64,000 bases of DNA from Aneurinibacillus thermoaerophilus (GTDB taxonomy: Bacteria; Bacillota; Bacilli; Aneurinibacillales; Aneurinibacillaceae): positions 1 through 64,000 of the forward strand of contig NZ_FNDE01000011.1 of assembly GCF_900099925.1 (NCBI RefSeq), read 5' to 3'. This document shows positions 9,230-64,000 of the stretch, in pieces (position 1 is the stretch's first letter; each line of letters starts with the position of its first letter). Both the position numbers and the translations under genes were made by a program. Below the pieces are notes generated by a model. The model did no database searches and was not told the DNA's origin. It saw only the letters and a program-made list of their open reading frames with translations.

Positions 9230-9278
9230 TTGAGAAGGGAAAAAGTATGTTTTATAATTGAAATTGATTATCATTATC
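9230..9278 (+). promoter_or_regulatory. Sigma-A promoter overlapped downstream by a Fur box
   Basis: TTGAGA (9230-9235), 17 bases, TATAAT (9253-9258) is a near-consensus sigma-A promoter. Immediately after it lies GAAATTGATTATCATTATC (9260-9278), matching 16 of 19 positions of the Fur consensus GATAATGATAATCATTATC. Fur bound here would cover the transcription start. The first downstream reading frame is the 41-codon ORF at 9295. A second TATAAT with an extended TG lies at 9173-9178. Confidence 0.8.
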
Positions 9279-9420: not shown

Positions 9421-9601
9421 CTTCGCTTCTGACCAAACGGTTTGCACTGTTCTTTACCGGTATGTTATGCAGCATGACAGGTTTACGTGAAGCGTATATT
9501 CTTTCGCTTTCGTCTGTTTCGCGATAATAAATAAAGGCTCGTACTCGTTTGGTGTGAAAGAAGCAGTATTCAAGTTAGGGCTCTTCATAGAAAAAGGCGC
9601 A

Positions 9602-45320: not shown

Positions 45321-46523
45321 ATGAAAGCATGGAAAGTATTGACCACTATAGCAGTCGCGACGATGTTTGTACTATCTGGATGCGGTACTGGACAGGGAGC
45401 AGCTAAGCCGCAGACGGAGAGTAAACAGGCGCAGGCAACGGAAACGAAAACAGAATCGAACAAGCCGCAAGAAGGGCAATTTAATGCTACCGCTTATACT
45501 TCCGCGTTAAAAGAACTTGTTAGCTTGGTGAAGAAAGGTGAAGACAAAACGCCGGTAGATTGGGATAAGGCGCAGAAAGCATACGACGAAAAGCTGAAGC
45601 AGCACGTTCAGATGCTGGATGGAGAATATAAAGAAAAGGTTGATGAGCAGCTGACTGCAGCGCTTACCGCCGGTAAAGCGGGACAGATGCCTGCGTCAGT
45701 AGTGGGCCAAATCGTCGATAAACTGCTTCAGAAAACGGCATTTTTGACGGCACGTTACGAGTTTAAGCAGGCGGACGACAGATTTGACAATAAAGAAGAA
45801 GCGAAAAAAGCGGTAGCAACCGCAAAAGAAGTTTATGAAGCTTCTTTGAAAGGCACGATGGAGAAGCGCGATAACGCGTATCAGACTCAGCTGTTGAGCG
45901 CCATTGATACCGGATTTTCCGAAATGAACAGCGCTATTGATAAAGGTGATAAACTGGCGTACAATCTCGGCAAACAAATGGTTGATAAATCGCTCATGAA
46001 AGGTTTCTATCTCGCTTCTGGCGGTGAAAAAGGCTACGCTTACAAAATTGAAAAAGGCGTCCAAGAAGGTGAGAAGCAGGAGAAGTTGAAAGAGATGCAG
46101 GCTGAGGGGTGGGCGTTCTTCCAATCGCTTCAGGGATACCTGTCAAAGCATGATAAGGAATCTGCGGATTATATTAACCAACAGTTTGATCTGTCCAACG
46201 ATCCGAAAACGATCAAAGGTGGCAAAATAAATGCAGCGTATATTCGTGCAATTACAGCTACAGCCAAGAGTGAATATGACGAATCATTCAAAAATTGGGG
46301 ACAAGACAAAGCGGTGATTACTTCTTTAGAAGGTGCGCTTTTTCTCGATATGATAAAATTGGATTTACCGAAAGTGCTGGGAGACAAGGCGAAGGCGGAT
46401 AAGCTGCTTGAACAGGCGCAACAACATTTGAATGCCGTGAAAGCAGGCGATAAGCAAAAAGCGGAAGCAATTTATAAAGAAATGACACCAGCGCTTGACA
46501 AGCTTACATCCTACGGTAAATAA
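45321..46523 (+). CDS. Helical surface lipoprotein, first gene of a Fur-boxed iron operon
   Basis: This 400-residue lipoprotein (lipobox VLSGC near residue 21) has a Gln/Glu/Thr-rich spacer and then a wholly helical, Lys/Glu/Ala-rich body with recurring blocks such as TARYEFKQADDRFDNKEEAKKAVATAKEVYEASLKG. No GxHxxE imelysin/EfeO motif is found, so it is not a classical EfeO. Position behind a Fur box and upstream of an FTR1 permease suggests a substrate-capturing or accessory role in iron uptake (inference). The next gene is a related-looking helical protein. Start: GAGGGAGAAGG before the ATG. Confidence 0.85.
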   Translation: MKAWKVLTTIAVATMFVLSGCGTGQGAAKPQTESKQAQATETKTESNKPQEGQFNATAYTSALKELVSLVKKGEDKTPVDWDKAQKAYDEKLKQHVQMLDGEYKEKVDEQLTAALTAGKAGQMPASVVGQIVDKLLQKTAFLTARYEFKQADDRFDNKEEAKKAVATAKEVYEASLKGTMEKRDNAYQTQLLSAIDTGFSEMNSAIDKGDKLAYNLGKQMVDKSLMKGFYLASGGEKGYAYKIEKGVQEGEKQEKLKEMQAEGWAFFQSLQGYLSKHDKESADYINQQFDLSNDPKTIKGGKINAAYIRAITATAKSEYDESFKNWGQDKAVITSLEGALFLDMIKLDLPKVLGDKAKADKLLEQAQQHLNAVKAGDKQKAEAIYKEMTPALDKLTSYGK

Positions 46524-46560
46524 TTGAAAAATTATATCATAAAGAGCAGGGGGCATGGTT

Positions 46561-47322
46561 ATGAAACAATCAGCGTTCATTTCCGCCCTCTTTGTTTGCT
46601 TGCTTATGTTTACGCTTGCGCCGGTGCCGGCGTGGGCGTATTCATACGGCAATCCAAACGAAGAGGCCGTAGCGGAAAACTACAAACAAGTGGCGGCAAA
46701 ATTGAATCAGGATCCTCCGGATTACAGCGGAGCGATTCAAGTATTCCAGTCTATTAAGGGAGAACTGGACATGCACATGGGGCCTGAGCCGGCGAAAGTG
46801 ATGATTCAGGCGCTTGAGGATAAAGATAAAGAAGCGGCCCTGAAAGCGTATCATCAAGTGCTCGTGCTGAACATCGCACGTCGCATGGAGAGTGTAGAAA
46901 AAGACTTTAAAAATTATGAACAAAATAAACTTTTGCTTGCAAAAGCAAGGGCTACATACGAAGCACTTTCCCCGATCGTGAAAGAAAAAGACCAAGCGCT
47001 TGACCAAAAAGTGCGCGCTGCGTTCGATGAAGCGCTTGCTTCGCTTGGCAACCCGGGCTTGTTCGGCGTTGGGATAAAAGAGCCGGATCAGGCCAAATAC
47101 AAGGAAAAGAAAGAAGAGATTTATAAAACGCTACAGGACAAGTTTCAATTGAAAGACATAGAAGTTGGCCACTTTAAACCGGGCGAAGGACCGGGCAATA
47201 CGGCAAACGCGAAAAAAACATCCACTGGTATCAGTGACTTGAAAAACTGGGTTCCGCTCGCGGTGATCGTGATCGTACTTGGATTCATTATTTTTCGGAC
47301 GATGCGCAAACGGCGCGGATAA
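46561..47322 (+). CDS. Exported helical protein with C-terminal membrane anchor, iron-operon accessory
   Basis: This 253-residue protein has a cleavable signal (FISALFVCLLMFTLAPVPAWA), a mature helical domain (YKQVAAKLNQDPPDYSGAIQVFQSIKG, LLLAKARATYEALSPIVKEKDQALDQKV), a Gly/Pro/Asn-rich linker and a C-terminal helix (WVPLAVIVIVLGFIIFRTM) with a basic stop. The start at 46561 follows AGCAGGGGG; ATG 46555 is too close. The helical domain resembles extracytoplasmic modules fused to or paired with FTR1 permeases in other Firmicutes (family knowledge, not verified here). It is 37 bases after the lipoprotein gene. Confidence 0.82.
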   Translation: MKQSAFISALFVCLLMFTLAPVPAWAYSYGNPNEEAVAENYKQVAAKLNQDPPDYSGAIQVFQSIKGELDMHMGPEPAKVMIQALEDKDKEAALKAYHQVLVLNIARRMESVEKDFKNYEQNKLLLAKARATYEALSPIVKEKDQALDQKVRAAFDEALASLGNPGLFGVGIKEPDQAKYKEKKEEIYKTLQDKFQLKDIEVGHFKPGEGPGNTANAKKTSTGISDLKNWVPLAVIVIVLGFIIFRTMRKRRG

Positions 47323-47325
47323 ACG

Positions 47326-48825
47326 ATGAAGCGCGCAGCATTGATAACCTTCTTGGCGTTGCTTGTCCGTCTGCCGTTTTTGGCGCAAGGACCGGGTGGA
47401 TGGGATGATGTGGATTTTGCGTTAGGGCTGCAAGAGTATGATTTGGCAGCGATGCAGCCTCATTTTCCCGGTTACCCGATATATATGCTGGTTGCGTTTT
47501 TATTCGGCAGTTTGACTGACAATCCCTTTCTTGCGCTGTCCGCGCTATCCGCCGTGGCGGCATCGCTTACCGTTTTCCCGTTATATAGCATCTCTTTACG
47601 TTGCGGCGGAAAGCGGGTGGCTGATGCCGCTTGCTTGTTGTGGGCTGTAGCGCCGCTTTCGGTTGTGCTCGGGACGCAGCCGTTATCAGACAGCTTTGGT
47701 ACATTGCTGGCCACATTGCTTGTCGCAAGCAGTCTTCGTGCGCTGGATGGAACGCTTGGCGAACGGCGACGAGCACTGGCTCTTTTGGTGAGCGGGATTT
47801 TGCTTGGACTTTTGTACGGTGTACGGGTGTCATATATCATGCTGGGAGCTGTACCGCTTTGGGCCGGATATGTATATGGGCGGGATACAAAGCGGTGGAT
47901 GGACGTGGCGAATGCTGCGTTTGGAGCCGCTCTTGTGTCGTTGTTATGGGTGTATGCAATGGCGGTGAACGTAGGAAGCATGCAAGGGCTGTGGGAGCTT
48001 GCGCGCGCTTTTACTGGCGGTCATTTCTCCGATTGGGGTGGCGCGTACACCGGGGGAAATATCATGGAGCGTTTTGGCTATTGGATGTTACGCCAGTGGC
48101 TGGCGGCGGGGCTGGGCGCGCCATGGCCGGGACAGCACTGGATAAGTCTGGGCGTGCTTGTTCTTTTGCCGGTAGCTCTGGTCGGATGGTGGATGGTGCA
48201 AAAGAAAGTGCGTCGGACAGCGCGTACACGTTGGCGTGAAGCCGGACTTTTTTTTATGTGGATTGTTCCGTATTTTTGGTGGGCGTTTTTTGCTCAGAAT
48301 GTAGAGAAACCGCGCCATATTTTGCCGTTGCTTGTTCCTTTGCTTCAGGGACTTGCGTTTGGTTTCCTAAGCTGGCGGAGAGCAGGGAGAGTCTTTTTGC
48401 TGGCATTTGCCGCATGTATGGCGGCGGTGAGCTGGACACAGATTCATGATCAGCGGACGCAGGCGTCACCGATGGTGCAGCTTGCGGATTATGCCGCGCT
48501 ACATTTGCCGGCTTCAGGTGTAGTGTACACATACGAAGAAGAACGAGTGATGCGTTATCGTCATCCGTCGCTACAGGTGGTTCGTTTGCGCGGCTGGCCT
48601 GTGTTTCAAACATCGGTTCTTAGCCTGAGAGCGCAGCCTGAATCCGTGTTTATGACCGATGCGGTCTTGGAAGGCTTTCATAAACCGATCTTGCGGCAAT
48701 ATGTCAGGGAACGCGCACGTTTTACGGGAAACCCTTGGCTGTACCCGACGTATCATCGCATTATTTTGTATGAGATTCGTCCAGATCGGAAAGTGGAATG
48801 GCGCAATTGTATCCGAAATGGATAA
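47326..48825 (+). CDS. GT-C fold membrane glycosyltransferase (PMT/ArnT-like)
   Basis: This 499-residue multi-pass protein has a short N-terminal helix followed by WDDVDFALGLQEYDL, which fits the acidic D-x-D/E catalytic loop of GT39/GT83-type enzymes that move sugars from polyprenyl phosphate. HFPGYPIYMLVAF, LLLGLLYGVRVSYIMLG and ENVEKPRHILPLLVPLLQG-like elements are also typical. It starts four bases after the preceding iron-operon gene, so it is translated from the same mRNA. A DPM1-like gene that could supply the lipid-linked sugar lies at 51316. Acceptor and sugar are unknown. Confidence 0.78.
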   Translation: MKRAALITFLALLVRLPFLAQGPGGWDDVDFALGLQEYDLAAMQPHFPGYPIYMLVAFLFGSLTDNPFLALSALSAVAASLTVFPLYSISLRCGGKRVADAACLLWAVAPLSVVLGTQPLSDSFGTLLATLLVASSLRALDGTLGERRRALALLVSGILLGLLYGVRVSYIMLGAVPLWAGYVYGRDTKRWMDVANAAFGAALVSLLWVYAMAVNVGSMQGLWELARAFTGGHFSDWGGAYTGGNIMERFGYWMLRQWLAAGLGAPWPGQHWISLGVLVLLPVALVGWWMVQKKVRRTARTRWREAGLFFMWIVPYFWWAFFAQNVEKPRHILPLLVPLLQGLAFGFLSWRRAGRVFLLAFAACMAAVSWTQIHDQRTQASPMVQLADYAALHLPASGVVYTYEEERVMRYRHPSLQVVRLRGWPVFQTSVLSLRAQPESVFMTDAVLEGFHKPILRQYVRERARFTGNPWLYPTYHRIILYEIRPDRKVEWRNCIRNG

Positions 48826-48874
48826 TTGATTTCACCCGTTCTTCCACTTATAATGAGAATGAAAATAATTATTG
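48826..48874 (+). promoter_or_regulatory. Internal promoter with Fur box before the FTR1 gene
   Basis: TTGATT (48826-48831), 17 bases, TATAAT (48849-48854). TGAAAATAATTATTG (48860-48874) matches 11 of 14 positions of the Fur 7-1-7 consensus and lies over the expected transcription start. The permease can therefore be expressed apart from the upstream genes. Confidence 0.72.
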
Positions 48875-48901
48875 ATTAGTGATTTTGAGGGAGTGGCGAG
48901 C

Positions 48902-49825
48902 ATGGAGTTGCAGGCTTTTTTAATTACGTTCCGCGAAGCTCTGGAAGCGTTGCTCATTGTCGGAATTATTACCTCCTATTTAAAGAGGGTCAACCGTCCT
49001 GAATTCACCAAATACGTATGGTTAGGTGCAGCGCTTGCGATCATTGCTTCGCTTGGTCTCGCCTTGGTCTTCCAGGTAGTGTTGGATGGCTTCGCTACGA
49101 TGGGCGCACAGACCTACATGAAAGTGGGGATTATGATCATTTCCGGTCTTTTGCTCACGCAAATGGTGTTTTGGATGGCGGCGCAAGCGAAGGATATTTC
49201 AAGCGAAATGAAGGGCAAATATGATAGGTTTATTACGACGGGCAACGTGATTGGCATGGTAGTTCACGCATTTCTCGTCGTCTTACGCGAAGGGGTTGAG
49301 ACGGTATTTTTTTTCGCGGCGATTACGGGTGGCGATATTGGAAAAGCGATGCAAACGTGGGGCTCGTTTGGCGGCATCGTGCTTGCAGCGGTTGTCTCCT
49401 TTCTGTTCTTCCGCGGAACAATGCGCATTCCGCTTAAAACTTTCTTCAAAGTAACCGGAGCATTTATTGTGTTGATTGCCGCTGGATTAATCGTGCAGGC
49501 GATTTCAATTTTGCAGGATATGAACATTCTCGGATCGCTCGTGCCTCATGTATATGACTTAACGTGGTTTATGCCAGAGCATCCGATTGATGAGCAGCAC
49601 TATATTCGCGATACGGGACATACGCCTGTTATTTCCGGAGATGTAGGTGTTTTCCTTAAAGCGTTGTTTGGATATGCATCCTCCCCTTCGCTGGAAGAAT
49701 GCCTGGTTTACTGGGGATACTTCCTAGGGCTGTATCTGCTTTTACGCGGCAGAAATGAACGGAAAGACGCGGCGGAAGGGATGGAGTATGCGAAGGAGAG
49801 TCAGGCAAAGATTAAAGAAGCATGA
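48902..49825 (+). CDS. FTR1-family high-affinity iron permease
   Basis: This 307-residue permease of the oxidase-dependent (FTR1/EfeU) family has seven helices. Both iron-binding REXXE motifs are present, in TFREALEALLIVG and VLREGVETVFFFAA. It has its own Fur-boxed promoter and sits downstream of two exported helical proteins, forming an apparent ferrous/ferric uptake system. No EfeB-type peroxidase or multicopper oxidase lies beside it. The start at 48902 follows GAGGGAGTGG. A terminator hairpin directly follows the stop. Confidence 0.92.
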   Translation: MELQAFLITFREALEALLIVGIITSYLKRVNRPEFTKYVWLGAALAIIASLGLALVFQVVLDGFATMGAQTYMKVGIMIISGLLLTQMVFWMAAQAKDISSEMKGKYDRFITTGNVIGMVVHAFLVVLREGVETVFFFAAITGGDIGKAMQTWGSFGGIVLAAVVSFLFFRGTMRIPLKTFFKVTGAFIVLIAAGLIVQAISILQDMNILGSLVPHVYDLTWFMPEHPIDEQHYIRDTGHTPVISGDVGVFLKALFGYASSPSLEECLVYWGYFLGLYLLLRGRNERKDAAEGMEYAKESQAKIKEA

Positions 49826-49826
49826 G

Positions 49827-49847
49827 AGCCGGCGCAGCCGGCTTTTA
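49827..49847 (+). terminator. Terminator after the FTR1 gene
   Basis: GCCGGC (49828-49833), three-base loop, GCCGGC (49837-49842), then TTTTAT. Confidence 0.7.
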
Positions 49848-49871
49848 TCTTTGCGGGAGAGGAGAACGACA

Positions 49872-51353
49872 ATGAAAAAAGCGTCAGCGTTTGAAATTAT
49901 TGCGGCCCGCTGCTGGAATGTGTTGAACGAAGGGAAGACATTTACTCCTGTATATGTAACGGGCATTGCATTTCTTTACTATGTGGCAACCGACTGGCAG
50001 ACAGATAAATTTTTTGTGGCTCTACTCTGCTTATTGCCGTTGTTTGTAATTTATTATGCGTATGATTTTCCATTGTATTTACGATGGTTTTTATGGCTGC
50101 CTCTGCTTGCCGCGACCTGGCTGTTTGGTGTGCTCGATATAGGGCTGTTGCTGTTTAGTCTTGGTATGTATATTTTTTTCACCGTGTTTTTCTGGGGAAC
50201 ATTGTATTATCATTTGCGGATCGGTACAACCTGGTGGAATTTCTTGCGTATCTGGAAACTATTCTTGAAAAATACGGACTCCACCAGTGGTAATGTCTTT
50301 GAGCAAGTGCCGAAGTTTTTTCTTCAGCTTCTTGTTTTTTCAGCGATTTATAATGTGCCAGAGCCAGCGGCACTTCTGGGAAAGCTAGTGGTGTTTTCAG
50401 CGGCGCTGCTTGTAGCTTCATACATGATTCACAAATATTTATTTAATTGGAAGCCGGTAGAATACCCAACATATACCGATCCGGCTGATTTGCCGAAAAA
50501 GCCGCTGGCAAAAAAGGTGGTTGTGGTTGTTATTGATGGTTGCCGCAAAGAGCGTCTTTATGAAGCGGATGCGCCGTTTTTGCATCGTTTGATGCAGGAA
50601 GGAACCGTGTATGAAACGATGGAAACGATTTATCCAGCTCGCACCGTTACCTGCTTTTCTTCTATGTTTACGGGAACGTATCCGAGCGAACATGGCATTA
50701 AATCCAATATGGTATGGAGTTTATTAGTGAAAGTGGAAAGCATATTCGACGTACTGAAAAAGCAGGGAAAAAAGGGAGTGCTGTTCGGGTGCGCGCATCT
50801 GATCGATGCATTCGGTGATTATGTTGAAAGTTTCACTGCGGTTTCGCACAACGATATTGTTGATAGAAAGATTATGGAGCAGGCCAAAGTCATTTACGAG
50901 CGGGAAAATCCTGATTTGTTTGTTGTACAGATGATTGCTGTAGACCAGACCGGACATAGCCGGGGTGTGCTATACCCGGAATATCTAGAGAAAATAAAAG
51001 AAGCGGATGAACTTATCGCTGATTTTCACGCCTGGCTGATGAAGCGCGGCGAAATGGATGAAACGGCGTTTATTGTTATGGCGGATCATGGCCAAGGAAA
51101 CGGGATTGGCGGACACGGTCATCTGGATGTTGGCGAGCGGTTCGTACCGTTTCTCATGCATGGTCCAATGATTCAGCGTGGGAAGCGGGTGGAAGAATTT
51201 CGCAGCATTGTATCGCTTGCCCCGACCATTAGCGCTTTGCTAGGCGTACCGCTGCCCGATCACGCGCGCGGACCGATCCTAAAAGAAGCATTCAAAGCGG
51301 AGGAGTCGATAGAAGATGAAGAAGCTTATCATCGTTATTCCCGCATTCAATGA
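49872..51353 (+). CDS. Membrane-anchored type I phosphodiesterase / nucleotide pyrophosphatase
   Basis: This 493-residue protein has about 200 residues of membrane segments at the N-terminus (VTGIAFLYYVATDWQTDKFF, FPLYLRWFLWLPLLAATWLF and others), then an alkaline-phosphatase-superfamily domain. Metal sites are VVVVIDGCRKERL (Asp), the nucleophile Thr/Ser region IYPARTVTCFSSMFTGTYPSEHGI, IAVDQTGHSRG, VMADHGQGNGIGGHGHL and the final His. It may cleave phosphodiester-linked lipid, nucleotide or polymer substrates. The start at 49872 follows GAGAGGAG. The last 38 bases overlap the next gene, a GT2 glycosyltransferase, which points to a joint role in an envelope glycan. Confidence 0.85.
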   Translation: MKKASAFEIIAARCWNVLNEGKTFTPVYVTGIAFLYYVATDWQTDKFFVALLCLLPLFVIYYAYDFPLYLRWFLWLPLLAATWLFGVLDIGLLLFSLGMYIFFTVFFWGTLYYHLRIGTTWWNFLRIWKLFLKNTDSTSGNVFEQVPKFFLQLLVFSAIYNVPEPAALLGKLVVFSAALLVASYMIHKYLFNWKPVEYPTYTDPADLPKKPLAKKVVVVVIDGCRKERLYEADAPFLHRLMQEGTVYETMETIYPARTVTCFSSMFTGTYPSEHGIKSNMVWSLLVKVESIFDVLKKQGKKGVLFGCAHLIDAFGDYVESFTAVSHNDIVDRKIMEQAKVIYERENPDLFVVQMIAVDQTGHSRGVLYPEYLEKIKEADELIADFHAWLMKRGEMDETAFIVMADHGQGNGIGGHGHLDVGERFVPFLMHGPMIQRGKRVEEFRSIVSLAPTISALLGVPLPDHARGPILKEAFKAEESIEDEEAYHRYSRIQ

Positions 51354-52050
51354 AGAAGCATCCGTAGGTACGGTTATTGCCAAAGTGCCGCATGCATTTG
51401 ATCCGGATGTAAAAGTGGAAATACTGGTTGTCAATGACGGTTCGACTGACCGTACGGTGGAAGCAGCGGAGCGCGCTGGCGCGGAACATATTATGACATT
51501 TTCCAAAAACAGAGGATTAGGCGCTGCAGTGCGCGAAGGGTTGAAAGAAGCATATCGGCTGGGTGCCGATCTTGCGGTGATGATCGACGCGGACGACGAA
51601 TACCCGGCTGATCATATCCCGCGTGTGGTAGCGCCGATTTTGAAAGGCGAGGCAGATTATGTGCTCGCTTCCCGTTTTCGTCGACGCGTGCGCGGCATGA
51701 AATTGTATCGCCGGCTTGGTAATTACTTTTTTACCGCGCTGCAGATGTTGCTTCTGCGCAAATGGATTACGGACGGACAAACCGGCTTTCGCGCTTTTTC
51801 GCGTCCGGTGTTGCGAGATATGGACATTATTCATGATTATAACTACGCCCAGGTAATGACAATGAATATTGTGCGCCAGGGTTATCGTCTCGCTGAAGTA
51901 GACATCCCATACAAAGTGAGAGAAACGGGCGAATCGTTTATTACATTTTGGGGTTACTTGATCAATGTCTTCCCGGCCATCTGGCGGGAATGGCGGCGGA
52001 CGGACATGAAAAAGCATTCCGGCCGCTTTGATTCAAGAATGCAGGAATAA
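51316..52050 (+). CDS. GT2 glycosyltransferase, dolichol-phosphate mannosyltransferase-like
   Basis: This 244-residue cytosolic enzyme likely loads a hexose onto polyprenyl phosphate. Motifs are VIPAFNEEASVGTVI, VVNDGSTDRT (nucleotide site), KNRGLGAAVREGL, the DxD-type MIDADDEYPAD, then DYVLASRF and DGQTGFRAF. There is no C-terminal membrane pair, as in soluble DPM1-type proteins. It overlaps the phosphodiesterase gene by 38 bases, implying translational coupling. Together with the GT-C enzyme at 47326 it makes a plausible donor/transferase pair. Confidence 0.88.
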   Translation: MKKLIIVIPAFNEEASVGTVIAKVPHAFDPDVKVEILVVNDGSTDRTVEAAERAGAEHIMTFSKNRGLGAAVREGLKEAYRLGADLAVMIDADDEYPADHIPRVVAPILKGEADYVLASRFRRRVRGMKLYRRLGNYFFTALQMLLLRKWITDGQTGFRAFSRPVLRDMDIIHDYNYAQVMTMNIVRQGYRLAEVDIPYKVRETGESFITFWGYLINVFPAIWREWRRTDMKKHSGRFDSRMQE

Positions 52051-60408: not shown

Positions 60409-60446
60409 AAATCATTCCTGTTTTTTAGCGGGGATGATTTTTTCTT
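60409..60446 (+). terminator. Terminator after the universal stress protein gene
   Basis: AAATCATTCCTG (60409-60420) pairs with CGGGGATGATTT (60429-60440), followed by TTTC. Confidence 0.82.
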
Positions 60447-60500
60447 GTCTTTTTTTAGGAAGACAATTATACTTAAAATCAGATAATGAGAATCATTTTC
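60445..60500 (+). promoter_or_regulatory. Promoter with a strong Fur box, lipoprotein operon
   Basis: TTGTCT (60445-60450), 17 bases, TATACT (60468-60473). GATAATGAGAATCATTTTC (60482-60500) matches 17 of 19 positions of the Fur consensus, the best Fur site in the window. It lies over the expected transcription start, 29 bases before the first gene. Confidence 0.88.
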
Positions 60501-60528
60501 ATAATAGAGGATAGAGGAGTGAAGGGGT

Positions 60529-62634
60529 TTGCAAGAGAGAAAGAAAAAATACCCGTTTCGCACGGTCATGTCGATAAGCTTAGCTTCCGTGCTTGCATTT
60601 ATGAGCGGCTGCGGTACGAATGAAAAGGCAGCCATGACAGGGGAAGACACTAAGGCGAAGAAACAGGAAGCGAAACAAAACGTTTCCGTACCGGTTAAAG
60701 ATTATACTTTTGATACGGCCGGCAATATGTTTGCCTATACGGAATTTGAACTGTCGGGCGAGCCGATGGTAGAAGCGCTTGGCTTAGATCTGGATGTGCT
60801 GGATGCGGCGAAAGTTGATCAGCCGACTGTCTTTGATTACACGGCCGGAATTGAATCGTATGAGTATTCGGAAGAGGCGATGTACGAAGTTGTGGAAAAA
60901 TCAGGCCTTGGTCTTCATATGATTCACGCGCCAATGATCAAACAATTGGCGCAGAAGGCGGGCAAGAAAGAGAATGAAATGTTGGCGCAGCGCTTTATTG
61001 AGTTGGCGAATGCTGCAGGACATAAGCCGGATGAAATTCCGCGCAACATGTATCCGACGTTTATTGAGTACAGCAAAGGCGATCCGCACTATATTCAGCC
61101 TGTGGACACATCGAAATTTGCCGACGGTGAGAACGGTACATACATTCCGAAATATCAGGTCGACTTTAAAACGCTGCGGTGGGATCGCGATAAGATGGAT
61201 AAAACGCTGGTTCCGGCTGCGTATGGCTCCGTCTTTTTGAAACAAGCGCTATGGGCGAGCGACTTTTTAGGAGCAATGCACACGATAGACACGGAAGAGG
61301 AAGTGGAACCAAAAACGGATAAAGATGACGAAAACCCGAACATTGCCTTTGGCGGAGACTCTACTGATGGTCTTCAAGGTTTAATCATGTCCGAGCAGAT
61401 GTGGAACAAGGCTGCATATATCCGGGATTCCCTGTTTTATAATCCACAAACCGGAAAACTAGGCAAAGCGGAAGGCGCTTCTTATGATCCGAAGAAGCAG
61501 CTTGTGTACCTGCCGCATGCCATTGCCGTTACGGAAAACGGAGATAAGGAATATACGGCAGCTACGTCGCTTGAAGTGAAAGATCCGCGCAGCTTGCTAC
61601 AGGATCAGTGGCTGATGTTATGGGCTTTGTCTGAATACTTTGGTATGACAGATCAGCGGGAAGCTAATGCAAACACGAATCCGGCATTCCGTGCCGTATA
61701 TGACGGAAAGCCGTTCCCGGCTGCGCCGAAGCAAAATATTGATAACCGCGCAGATAACGATATTCGCTCGGATGATCCGTATTCCATTAACCGTGACCTG
61801 TTGTTGCAAATCTTCAAAAATATTCAGATGATGCACTGGAATGATAAGGAAGGCGTGTTTATTGCTGAACATGATGGTAAGCAGCAGGGCATGCATATGG
61901 ATACATTTGATGCCGCATATGCTATGGAAGCGTTACGCATTTTCCAACGTGCGTTTGATGGCTTACCGGTTGGCTACGCCAGCGGGGACGATGCCAAAGG
62001 ATTGGAGACAAAAGAAGGAAAAGCCGCGCTTGACATGATCCGCAAGCAGGCTGACTTTATCATTTCCAAGATGATTGATGAAAAAGGATTGGTGGCTAAC
62101 GGTTGGACAGTGGGCAAAGGCAAAGACGCAGATGCGCCGACACTGAAGGCACAAACCGGCGCCATCCGTGGCTTGACGGCTGCGTTTCTAGCGACTAAAG
62201 ATCCAAAATATCGTGAGGCAGCACGGAAAATTTACGCGGCTATGGATAAATACATGTGGGACGATAAAGTGAAAGCATATAAAACGTCAGGGGATCAATA
62301 CGAGTATGATGCCGTTGTCGCAGGCGGTGTTTCTGGAGCATTACGTATGGGTATTGCTTCCCTGCATAACATAGAAACCGATAAAGAAAAGATTCCGGCA
62401 CTTGATCGCAAGACCATTATTTCGCGCTACGTCGATTTTTACGATCGCGTAATTGATGGCCCGGCGCTTGACCAGGGCATGCAGACGAGCGAATTCTGGG
62501 ATACTGGAGACTTTTATAAAGAAGGCGACAAGTCCGGTAATACAGATGGTGATAACGTGCCACAGATTCAAGCCGGTCACGGTAAATATGGTATCGCGCC
62601 GGTACTTGTTCCGGTTGAGGTGAAAAGCAAATAG
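60529..62634 (+). CDS. Fur-regulated surface lipoprotein with an alpha-barrel-like fold
   Basis: This 701-residue protein starts at TTG 60529 after GAAGGGG. The signal has lipobox FMSGC (Cys near residue 27), so it is membrane-anchored outside. The body shows repeated helix pairs with patterns such as LLQDQWLMLWALSEYFG, TFDAAYAMEALRIFQRAFDGLP, TGAIRGLTAAFLATKDPKYREAARKIYAAMDKYMW and DAVVAGGVSGALRMGIASL. These recall (alpha/alpha)6 barrels of glycosidase or thioredoxin-like-domain proteins. No catalytic pair can be assigned. It heads a Fur-boxed operon with a YVTN/cytochrome lipoprotein, suggesting a role in iron acquisition or redox chemistry at the surface (inference). Confidence 0.85.
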   Translation: MQERKKKYPFRTVMSISLASVLAFMSGCGTNEKAAMTGEDTKAKKQEAKQNVSVPVKDYTFDTAGNMFAYTEFELSGEPMVEALGLDLDVLDAAKVDQPTVFDYTAGIESYEYSEEAMYEVVEKSGLGLHMIHAPMIKQLAQKAGKKENEMLAQRFIELANAAGHKPDEIPRNMYPTFIEYSKGDPHYIQPVDTSKFADGENGTYIPKYQVDFKTLRWDRDKMDKTLVPAAYGSVFLKQALWASDFLGAMHTIDTEEEVEPKTDKDDENPNIAFGGDSTDGLQGLIMSEQMWNKAAYIRDSLFYNPQTGKLGKAEGASYDPKKQLVYLPHAIAVTENGDKEYTAATSLEVKDPRSLLQDQWLMLWALSEYFGMTDQREANANTNPAFRAVYDGKPFPAAPKQNIDNRADNDIRSDDPYSINRDLLLQIFKNIQMMHWNDKEGVFIAEHDGKQQGMHMDTFDAAYAMEALRIFQRAFDGLPVGYASGDDAKGLETKEGKAALDMIRKQADFIISKMIDEKGLVANGWTVGKGKDADAPTLKAQTGAIRGLTAAFLATKDPKYREAARKIYAAMDKYMWDDKVKAYKTSGDQYEYDAVVAGGVSGALRMGIASLHNIETDKEKIPALDRKTIISRYVDFYDRVIDGPALDQGMQTSEFWDTGDFYKEGDKSGNTDGDNVPQIQAGHGKYGIAPVLVPVEVKSK

Positions 62635-62655
62635 GAGGCTATCCTCCTATTTTTG
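62631..62655 (+). terminator. Hairpin between the two lipoprotein genes
   Basis: ATAGGAGG-CTAT-CCTCCTAT overlaps the stop codon and is followed by TTTTT. It probably acts as a partial terminator that lowers expression of the second gene. Confidence 0.75.
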
Positions 62656-62697
62656 CTGTTTATTATTATAGAAAAAGAAAATGCGGGAGCAGAAAAA

Positions 62698-64000
62698 ATG
62701 AGGAAATGGAGAATTTGGATTGCCGCCGCGTTCGTTCTGTTAATGATGCTGAGCGGATGCAGCGAGAAAGAGACTGTAACGCAAGAAACGGTGACGCGCA
62801 ATGCCCCGGTTTCAAGCAATAGCATTGTCAAAAATCGGGCCGGGGATGTATTGTACACGGCTAATATTGATGTTAACACCGTATCGGTGATCGATGTGAA
62901 GCAGAACAAAGTTACCGCAGAGATTGCGGTAGGCCGTGAACCGCGTCAATTGGCGTTAAGCCCGGATGAAAAAACGTTGTACGTTACGTGTATGTTTGAC
63001 AACAAAGTTGATGTTATTGATATCGCCGCCAAAAAAGTGACGGCGTCGATTCCGGTCGGTATCGAACCGTTTGGCATCGTGACGAGTCCGGACGGAGGAA
63101 AAATATATGTTAGTAATTACCGTTCTTCCACATTGTCTATCATTGACCCTGAGAAACGAGAAGTAACAAAAACGATAAAAGTTGAGGAACGACCGCGCGG
63201 GCTGGCGTTAACCGCGGACGGAAAAAAACTGTATACGGTTCACTATTTGTCCGGGCATATTAGCGTGGTTGATACTTCCAAAGAAAAAGTGGGAAAAATA
63301 ATCGCTTTAGCTCCTTCTCCGGATAAAGAGGATCGCAAAAAGAGCCAGGGGCTTCCAAATACGGTTGAGCAATTCGTGATTGCGCCTGACGGTAAGACCG
63401 CTTGGGTACCGCATCTTGTAACAAATACAGATACGCCGATTCATTTTGAGGAAACTGTTTTTCCGGCGATTTCGGTTATCGATCTTGAAAAAGATGAAGA
63501 AATCAAGCAGGAACGTAAACAATTATTTGAGAAAATGGATGTGCGAGATGTAAAAAATGAAACGATAATCGTGTCTAATCCGGCCGATGTAGCATTTATG
63601 CCGGATGCAAGCAAAGCGTTCGTGCTTATGTCGGGCAGCGAAGATTTGGTTGTATTTGACTTGGTCCGGGGCGGTAAGGCGACTCAAATCGTGCGGCGCA
63701 TTCCGGGCGATAACCCGCGGGGGATGGTGCTGTCGAACGATGGAAACGAACTGTATGTGCACAATGCAATGAGCCACAGTTTAGCTCGCATTGAAACGGG
63801 CGGGAATGAGGCATATGCGGAAGCGAAAGCAAAGCCTGAAACGTTGCGGTTGATTGCCAAAGATTCATTGCCGCCGCTTGTCCGGAAAGGGAAAACCATA
63901 TTTTTTAGCGCGAATAGCGATAAATTTGCGGCACCGATTACGGGGAATAACTGGATGAGTTGCGCGTCTTGCCATGCGGACGGGGACATTAACGGATTAA
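62698..64000 (+). CDS. YVTN beta-propeller lipoprotein with c-type haem site, 3' end cut
   Basis: The open frame runs past the window end, giving 434 visible codons. The start at 62698 follows GGGAGC. MRKWRIWIAAAFVLLMMLSGC is a lipoprotein signal. Repeats of the YVTN type follow (VIDVKQNKVTAEIAVGREPRQLALSPDEKTLYVTC, DIAAKKVTASIPVGIEPFGIVTSPDGGKIYVSNY, and others), forming a beta-propeller. The last visible part, LVRKGKTIFFSANSDKF and MSCASCHADGDINGL, contains CxxCH for covalent haem c and resembles the start of a di-haem cytochrome c peroxidase/MauG-like domain. Fur control and pairing with another lipoprotein suggest a surface redox function linked to iron. Total length is unknown. Confidence 0.9.
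   Translation, partial: MRKWRIWIAAAFVLLMMLSGCSEKETVTQETVTRNAPVSSNSIVKNRAGDVLYTANIDVNTVSVIDVKQNKVTAEIAVGREPRQLALSPDEKTLYVTCMFDNKVDVIDIAAKKVTASIPVGIEPFGIVTSPDGGKIYVSNYRSSTLSIIDPEKREVTKTIKVEERPRGLALTADGKKLYTVHYLSGHISVVDTSKEKVGKIIALAPSPDKEDRKKSQGLPNTVEQFVIAPDGKTAWVPHLVTNTDTPIHFEETVFPAISVIDLEKDEEIKQERKQLFEKMDVRDVKNETIIVSNPADVAFMPDASKAFVLMSGSEDLVVFDLVRGGKATQIVRRIPGDNPRGMVLSNDGNELYVHNAMSHSLARIETGGNEAYAEAKAKPETLRLIAKDSLPPLVRKGKTIFFSANSDKFAAPITGNNWMSCASCHADGDINGL

Follow-up and report, generated by a model that had tools for sequence, protein, structure and literature searches.

A Conserved Lipoprotein Gene Pair with a Putative Fur Box, Encoding a Di-Haem Propeller Protein and Its Partner, Co-Occurs with FTR1 Iron Permeases in Bacilli

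Results

Conservation of the A-B pair

The 64,000-nucleotide stretch analyzed here (positions 1 to 64,000 of contig NZ_FNDE01000011.1 from Aneurinibacillus thermoaerophilus; hereafter, the window) ends with two adjacent lipoprotein genes, A (60529..62634, plus strand) and B (62698..64000, plus strand, continuing on the contig to 64677). The pair is conserved, is preceded by a conserved Fur box, which places it in a putative Fur regulon, and co-occurs with FTR1-type iron permease genes. A role of A-B in iron acquisition is well supported by the sequences compared, and genome evidence points to A-B with FTR1 as a new variant form of oxidase-dependent iron uptake. Our preferred reading, to which we give roughly an even chance, is that A-B is an iron-repressed, surface-anchored accessory module of FTR1-type uptake, in which B oxidizes Fe2+ and A is its partner. 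Here we infer the redox direction, the contact with FTR1, and all of A's activity.

The same set of 398 sampled Bacilli genomes or species was queried for A, B, and FTR1, and 22 distinct A-B loci were compared in their Fur boxes, neighbors, and haem motifs. B was found directly 3' of A in all 22 loci; no other neighbor was conserved among them, and no third conserved gene was found in the operon. A search of the 398 Bacilli in which the query was just the di-haem domain of B returned the same genomes as a search with A. One extra close B match without A (genome G399) starts at a contig edge. A and B are thus a conserved two-gene unit; the initial annotation of the window had staked its proposal of a joint function on such linkage. 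About 5% of the Bacilli species sampled have the pair (18/398 with both genes, besides one weak match), and A loci in named genomes belong to Fictibacillus, Peribacillus, Ectobacillus, Bacillus, and Brevibacillus. A search of the literature for a link between YVTN proteins, peroxidases, and Fur found none.

Gene B encodes a propeller and a di-haem domain

B starts at the ATG at 62698, within a longest open reading frame (ORF) beginning at 62653, and encodes a 659-aa lipoprotein with lipobox LLMMLSGC. When B was read past the window edge on the same contig, as the initial annotation had advised, a YVTN/lactonase propeller followed by a C-terminal di-haem domain of the cytochrome c peroxidase (CCP)/MauG type was recognized. 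A haem site had been correctly predicted from the truncated gene, but there are two CxxCH motifs rather than one. The complete protein is over the Pfam cut-offs for CCP_MauG (PF03150; 26.4-28.8 bits, cut-off 25.6), Cytochrom_C, and RoxA-like families. Both CxxCH motifs are invariant across 22 B homologues, and all B homologues contain a WDG(S/T/G)R motif that aligns with FWDGR of peroxidases 1iqc and 1nml. We class B by these motifs as a di-haem CCP/MauG-type protein that keeps the peroxidase inter-haem Trp. An AlphaFold2 model of B is confident for the propeller and of low confidence for the di-haem part, and for this reason the assignment of the latter rests on sequence.

Comparison with solved structures matched the propeller to YVTN proteins and the beta subunit of hydrazine synthase (HZS), the closest solved relative of B being a surface-layer YVTN protein. 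The best match of the di-haem part was the HZS gamma subunit, followed by bacterial peroxidases. Truncated B matched NF052340 and NF052342 far under their cut-offs. In an alignment with HZS gamma (5c2v_C), B has Thr at the position of the third-haem Cys and WDG where HZS is without Trp. An HZS-type activity of B was rejected because these key residues differ, the Trp being kept and the third haem Cys missing.

A conserved Fur box in the putative A-B promoter

A consensus scan revealed a promoter-like sequence upstream of A (60445..60473, plus strand; -35 TTGTCT and -10 TATACT with a 17-nt spacer, 9/12), though promoter-like sites in the window were no more numerous than in shuffled sequences. 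Just 3' of the -10 element lies a Fur box, GATAATGAGAATCATTTTC (60482..60500, plus strand), with 17 matches out of 19, the scale used for all Fur-box scores below. The position directly after -35 and -10 elements is the usual place of a repressor site. A scan of the window allowing up to three mismatches returned four Fur-box matches, versus 0.03 expected by chance.

The initial annotation had called this box the best in the window; its score stands, but it is tied with another 17/19 site at 9260-9278 on the minus strand. The latter lies in a roughly 900-base gap with no obvious gene, and the closest plus-strand ORFs of at least 100 aa begin at 9554 and 10176. Genome-wide, approximately 20 Fur-box-like sites were found at up to three mismatches, versus one for a reversed control pattern; two of them, at 71 and 139 kb on contig C33, reach 18/19.

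Across the 22 loci, the Fur box upstream of A was significant in 19 (shuffle p<=0.05), and the mean best score was 15.2/19 upstream of A; shuffled sequences averaged 11.0, and the region upstream of B averaged 10.8. The Fur control proposed in the initial annotation is thereby borne out, at the level of predicted sites, across many Bacilli families. PerR and Zur were tried as regulators of A-B and rejected for their poorer fit: the upstream box matched Fur better than PerR in 20/22 loci and better than Zur in 21/22.

These comparisons bear on whether A-B could serve peroxide defense, or be a respiratory peroxidase merely induced at low iron. H2O2 is reduced by enzymes of the CCP family, whose motifs B retains. 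However, the preference of the box for Fur over PerR argues against such a function, which would also leave unexplained the strict pairing with A and the association with FTR1 described below. Of all explanations considered, we give this one the least credence.

A-B co-occurs with FTR1 in genomes without EfeB

A strong FTR1 match (best E<=1e-34) was present in 18/19 pair-bearing genomes versus approximately 53/379 others (Fisher p ~8e-14; the counts in genomes without the pair were read by eye from a table, and genomes are not independent). In pair-bearing genomes, FTR1 usually lies inside a conserved, Fur-boxed cluster. The contrast is repeated within family f159 (FTR1 in 3/3 pair-bearing genomes versus 1/~28 for other FTR1-positive genomes among those listed) and within the genus of the window (3/3 pair-bearing genomes versus 0/4 others), which limits, but does not remove, phylogenetic confounding.

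The haem protein EfeB, a member of the dye-decolorizing peroxidase (DyP) family, works within iron-regulated EfeUOB operons (PMC3577903). A search for EfeB/DyP (PF04261), ordinarily the haem partner of FTR1, gave no match in any of the 19 pair-bearing genomes or in the genome of the window; DyP was present in 5/5 genomes with a long EfeU and in the E. coli and B. subtilis controls. Since B is peroxidase-like, Fur-boxed, associated with FTR1, and present in genomes that have no EfeB, it is best read as a candidate oxidizing partner.

The FTR1 cluster of the window

An FTR1 cluster lies in the window 11 kb upstream of A-B, with all genes on the plus strand. The permease gene (48872..49825, alternative ATG at 48902) belongs to the FTR1/EfeU family (PF03239, E 2.7e-38); against the EfeU model NF041756 its product scores E 1e-57 and 195.7 bits, under the equivalog cut-off of 255. 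A 15/19 Fur box (48855..48873, plus strand), directly upstream of the gene, is retained in two genomes of the same genus (14/19 in L129 and 15/19 in L145). Further upstream are genes for a 400-aa lipoprotein (45321..46523), which weakly matches the FEA1-related model NF038033 (E 4e-11, 42 bits, equivalog cut-off 250) and whose homologues are also preceded by a Fur box; a 255-aa exported "YSYG...LGNPGLFGVG" protein of no named family (46555..47322); and a PMT_2-type membrane glycosyltransferase (47326..48825). The latter two have homologues in an FTR1 cluster of Aeromonas. A type I phosphodiesterase/alkaline-phosphatase superfamily gene (49872..51353) and a family-2 glycosyltransferase gene (51316..52050) follow. 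This arrangement around FTR1 was found in most FTR1-positive genomes checked. The cluster as a whole (45321-52050), which is kept in many Bacilli and partly in Aeromonas, pairs an iron permease with glycosyltransferases.

Other candidate oxidases and partners were sought. A CxxCH scan of FTR1 loci revealed no other di-haem gene, and the searches made found no multicopper oxidase in the A-B operon or the FTR1 cluster, no genome-wide search having been conducted. Neither A nor the cluster lipoprotein matched the M75/EfeO family PF09375, which was not searched for genome-wide.

Gene A encodes a predicted alpha/alpha barrel

Gene A has a TTG start and encodes a 701-aa lipoprotein with lipobox ..LAFMSGC. 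A terminator-like hairpin, AAATAGGAGG-CTAT-CCTCCTATTT (62629..62652, plus strand; 10 pairs, weak T run), separates A from B and is probably partly read through. Family and PDB searches gave no Pfam, NCBIfam, or direct PDB match to A, and an attempt to name it by sequence failed, the sole signal being a weak profile match to cellobiose 2-epimerase (E 1.8e-4). In a plasmid of Anoxybacillus amylolyticus, A is annotated as "hypothetical protein" and B as "beta-propeller fold lactonase family protein".

An AlphaFold2 model of A, built from nine sequences, had a mean predicted local distance difference test (pLDDT) score of 69.8 and a predicted template modeling score of 0.76; pLDDT was mostly 75-97 in the barrel part, and the N-terminal third and the C-terminus scored low. 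From this model, A is predicted to be an alpha/alpha barrel. Structural matches were GH105, GH76, epimerases, and a DsbH-like protein, with Z scores of 19-24 and ca. 10% identity. Within so common a fold, such identity makes the barrel uninformative on function.

The same matches, together with the epimerase profile signal, raise the question of whether A is a sugar-active enzyme and the pair remodels surface glycan or S-layer at low iron, with no direct iron chemistry. The two glycosyltransferases and the phosphodiesterase of the FTR1 cluster would fit such a role, as would the surface-layer YVTN protein that is B's best solved relative. However, A passed no named-family cut-off, including those of alpha/alpha-barrel sugar epimerase and glycoside hydrolase families, and 10% identity shows no function; nor would such a role account for the di-haem domain, the putative Fur control, or the link to FTR1. 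We consider this role very improbable.

A and B homologues outside Bacilli

The initial annotation had supposed a system of Gram-positive bacteria, a restriction that does not hold. A search of a plasmid collection revealed A homologues at 43% identity in Aeromonas. In A. caviae, the A homologue (43%) adjoins, across a gap of about 1 kb, genes for isochorismate synthase, an AMP ligase, isochorismatase, and non-ribosomal peptide synthetase; this catecholate-siderophore gene set has a 16/19 Fur box, and A itself is without a good one. A B homologue located ca. 80 kb away (31% over the propeller and the first haem domain, E 1e-75) runs exactly up to an FTR1 gene (PF03239, E 2.7e-42), just beyond which are homologues of two other members of the Bacilli FTR1 cluster. 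In Aeromonas plasmids L080 and L083, an A homologue stands with glgC and an EAL-domain gene between insertion sequence elements, an arrangement that resembles a relocated chromosomal piece.

A metagenome-assembled genome of Bacteroidales encodes an A homologue (L010:2282-4468, 31%) with a type IX secretion tail (Por_Secre_tail), without the FWDTGDF stretch and with no B nearby. Beyond this one genome, the search of Bacteroidota for A returned weak partial matches alone.

Discussion

The finding of a Fur-boxed A-B unit is real and beyond chance. Its original interpretation as an iron system was of the right kind, although the unit is more aptly described as a new accessory to uptake by FTR1. 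Specifically, an extracellular iron-reducing or iron-releasing system had been proposed; the link to iron stands, while the chemistry is more likely to be oxidation for FTR1. In FTR1-type systems, transport is coupled to the oxidation of iron (PMC9174327). Because of this oxidase dependence, iron oxidation by B is likelier than reduction or release. Nor is the use of haem under iron limitation a paradox, as had been suggested, since EfeB already does so (PMC3577903).

We propose the following scheme. At iron shortage, Fur would leave the promoters of A-B and of the FTR1 cluster. B, lipid-anchored on the external face of the membrane, would use its c-type haems in the manner of bacterial cytochrome c peroxidases to oxidize Fe2+ with peroxide or another acceptor, and the resulting Fe3+ would be passed to FTR1, with the propeller providing a docking or binding surface. 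A, also lipid-anchored, would act as the obligate partner of B, either binding and presenting iron or an iron complex, or docking B. B would thus stand in for EfeB, the DyP haem protein of EfeUOB.

Several observations weigh against this scheme. At least 17 genomes with FTR1, about 14 of them with most of the cluster, have neither A-B nor DyP; because of these genomes, A-B is not required for FTR1 and would be an accessory rather than a fixed subunit. In most genomes A-B is not linked to FTR1, close linkage being seen in the genus of the window alone, and one pair-bearing genome (G476, in 420 contigs) shows no FTR1. The CCP-like sequence of B fits iron oxidation, iron reduction, or protein modification alike. 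Finally, the second haem domain is replaced in the Aeromonas B homologue by a multihaem domain that matches MtrC/MtrF-like and cytochrome c7 families.

Since such multihaem domains are typical of outward electron transfer, B may be an extracellular reductase or haem-iron releaser, in which respiratory-chain electrons passing through the c-type haems reduce Fe(III) chelates or free iron from haem or siderophores, and A binds the chelate. The location of the Aeromonas A homologue beside catecholate-siderophore genes is consistent with this, and the freeing of iron from haem has been linked to EfeB/FepB (PMC3577903). On the other hand, no redox-donor gene is conserved in the A-B operon, and the link to the oxidase-dependent FTR1 family and the peroxidase-type inter-haem Trp favor oxidation. 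We regard a reductase or releaser as rather unlikely.

The copper-repressed pairs MbnH/MbnP and CorB/CorA, in which a di-haem enzyme is thought to modify its secreted partner, suggest by analogy that B could act on A as a MauG/MbnH-like enzyme, modifying it, for example at a conserved Trp or Tyr, to create an iron-binding site. The strict one-to-one occurrence of a di-haem CCP/MauG-type enzyme and a secreted partner under metal-starvation control points in this direction, as do the many invariant aromatic residues of A homologues, e.g., those within ..GMQTSEFWDTGDFY.. However, the searches made gave no MbnP-type family match for A, and the A homologues without an adjacent B, including the Bacteroidales one without FWDTGDF, mean that no residue of A is shown to need B. 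Such modification seems quite improbable. Its most specific form, slightly less probable still, would be an iron counterpart of MbnH/MbnP, in which oxidation of A residues by B yields a high-affinity iron site feeding FTR1; iron capture through a protein-derived cofactor is, to our knowledge, undescribed.

Two unannotated genes, currently a "hypothetical protein" and a "lactonase family protein", become likely iron-uptake genes. Though FTR1 permeases need an oxidizing partner, we know of none for many bacterial FTR1 genes. A Fur-boxed di-haem pair tied to FTR1 in EfeB-less genomes, occurring across many families of Bacilli and, with its two genes apart, in Aeromonas, turns what oxidizes iron in such systems into a directly testable question. 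Among the HZS-betagamma-like propeller/di-haem proteins, one branch also gains a suggested function.

Among known systems, EfeUOB/FepABC/YwbLMN is similar in that a permease of the FTR1 family is combined, under iron regulation, with two extracytoplasmic proteins, one of them an extracellular haem protein (PMC9174327, PMC3577903). It differs in that EfeB is a DyP protein, while B is a lipid-anchored fusion of a propeller and a di-haem c-type CCP/MauG domain; in that A is a predicted alpha/alpha barrel and not, by the family searches done, an M75 protein; and in that A-B forms a separate operon. In uptake of the Chlamydomonas type, FTR1 functions with FEA1 and the ferroxidase FOX1. The window FTR1 is likewise clustered with an extracellular protein that is FEA1-related, by a weak match (for FEA1, see PMC8098128), but the candidate oxidase is the di-haem B in place of a multicopper oxidase, which the searches made did not reveal in the operon or cluster.

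B shares its propeller and di-haem CCP-like domain with HZS beta-gamma (fused in Ca. Scalindua) and non-anammox homologues. The consulted sections of PMC12758564 note HZS-betagamma homologues in "Bacillus" in passing, with no link to iron, and describe a third haem-binding Cys and a His instead of Trp in HZS gamma. B, as aligned, is without this Cys and keeps the CCP-type Trp; no HZS alpha gene was recognized beside it, and its partner differs. With di-haem cytochrome c peroxidases and MauG, B has in common the CCP_MauG match, two CxxCH motifs, and WDG(S/T/G)R, but it is distinguished by an N-terminal YVTN propeller, a Gram-positive lipid anchor, and a partner, A, under putative Fur control. 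Lastly, A-B resembles MbnH/MbnP and CorB/CorA as a MauG-like enzyme with a secreted partner controlled by metal starvation, the differences being that the metal is iron rather than copper, that A is unlike MbnP in its family matches, and that B is fused to a propeller.

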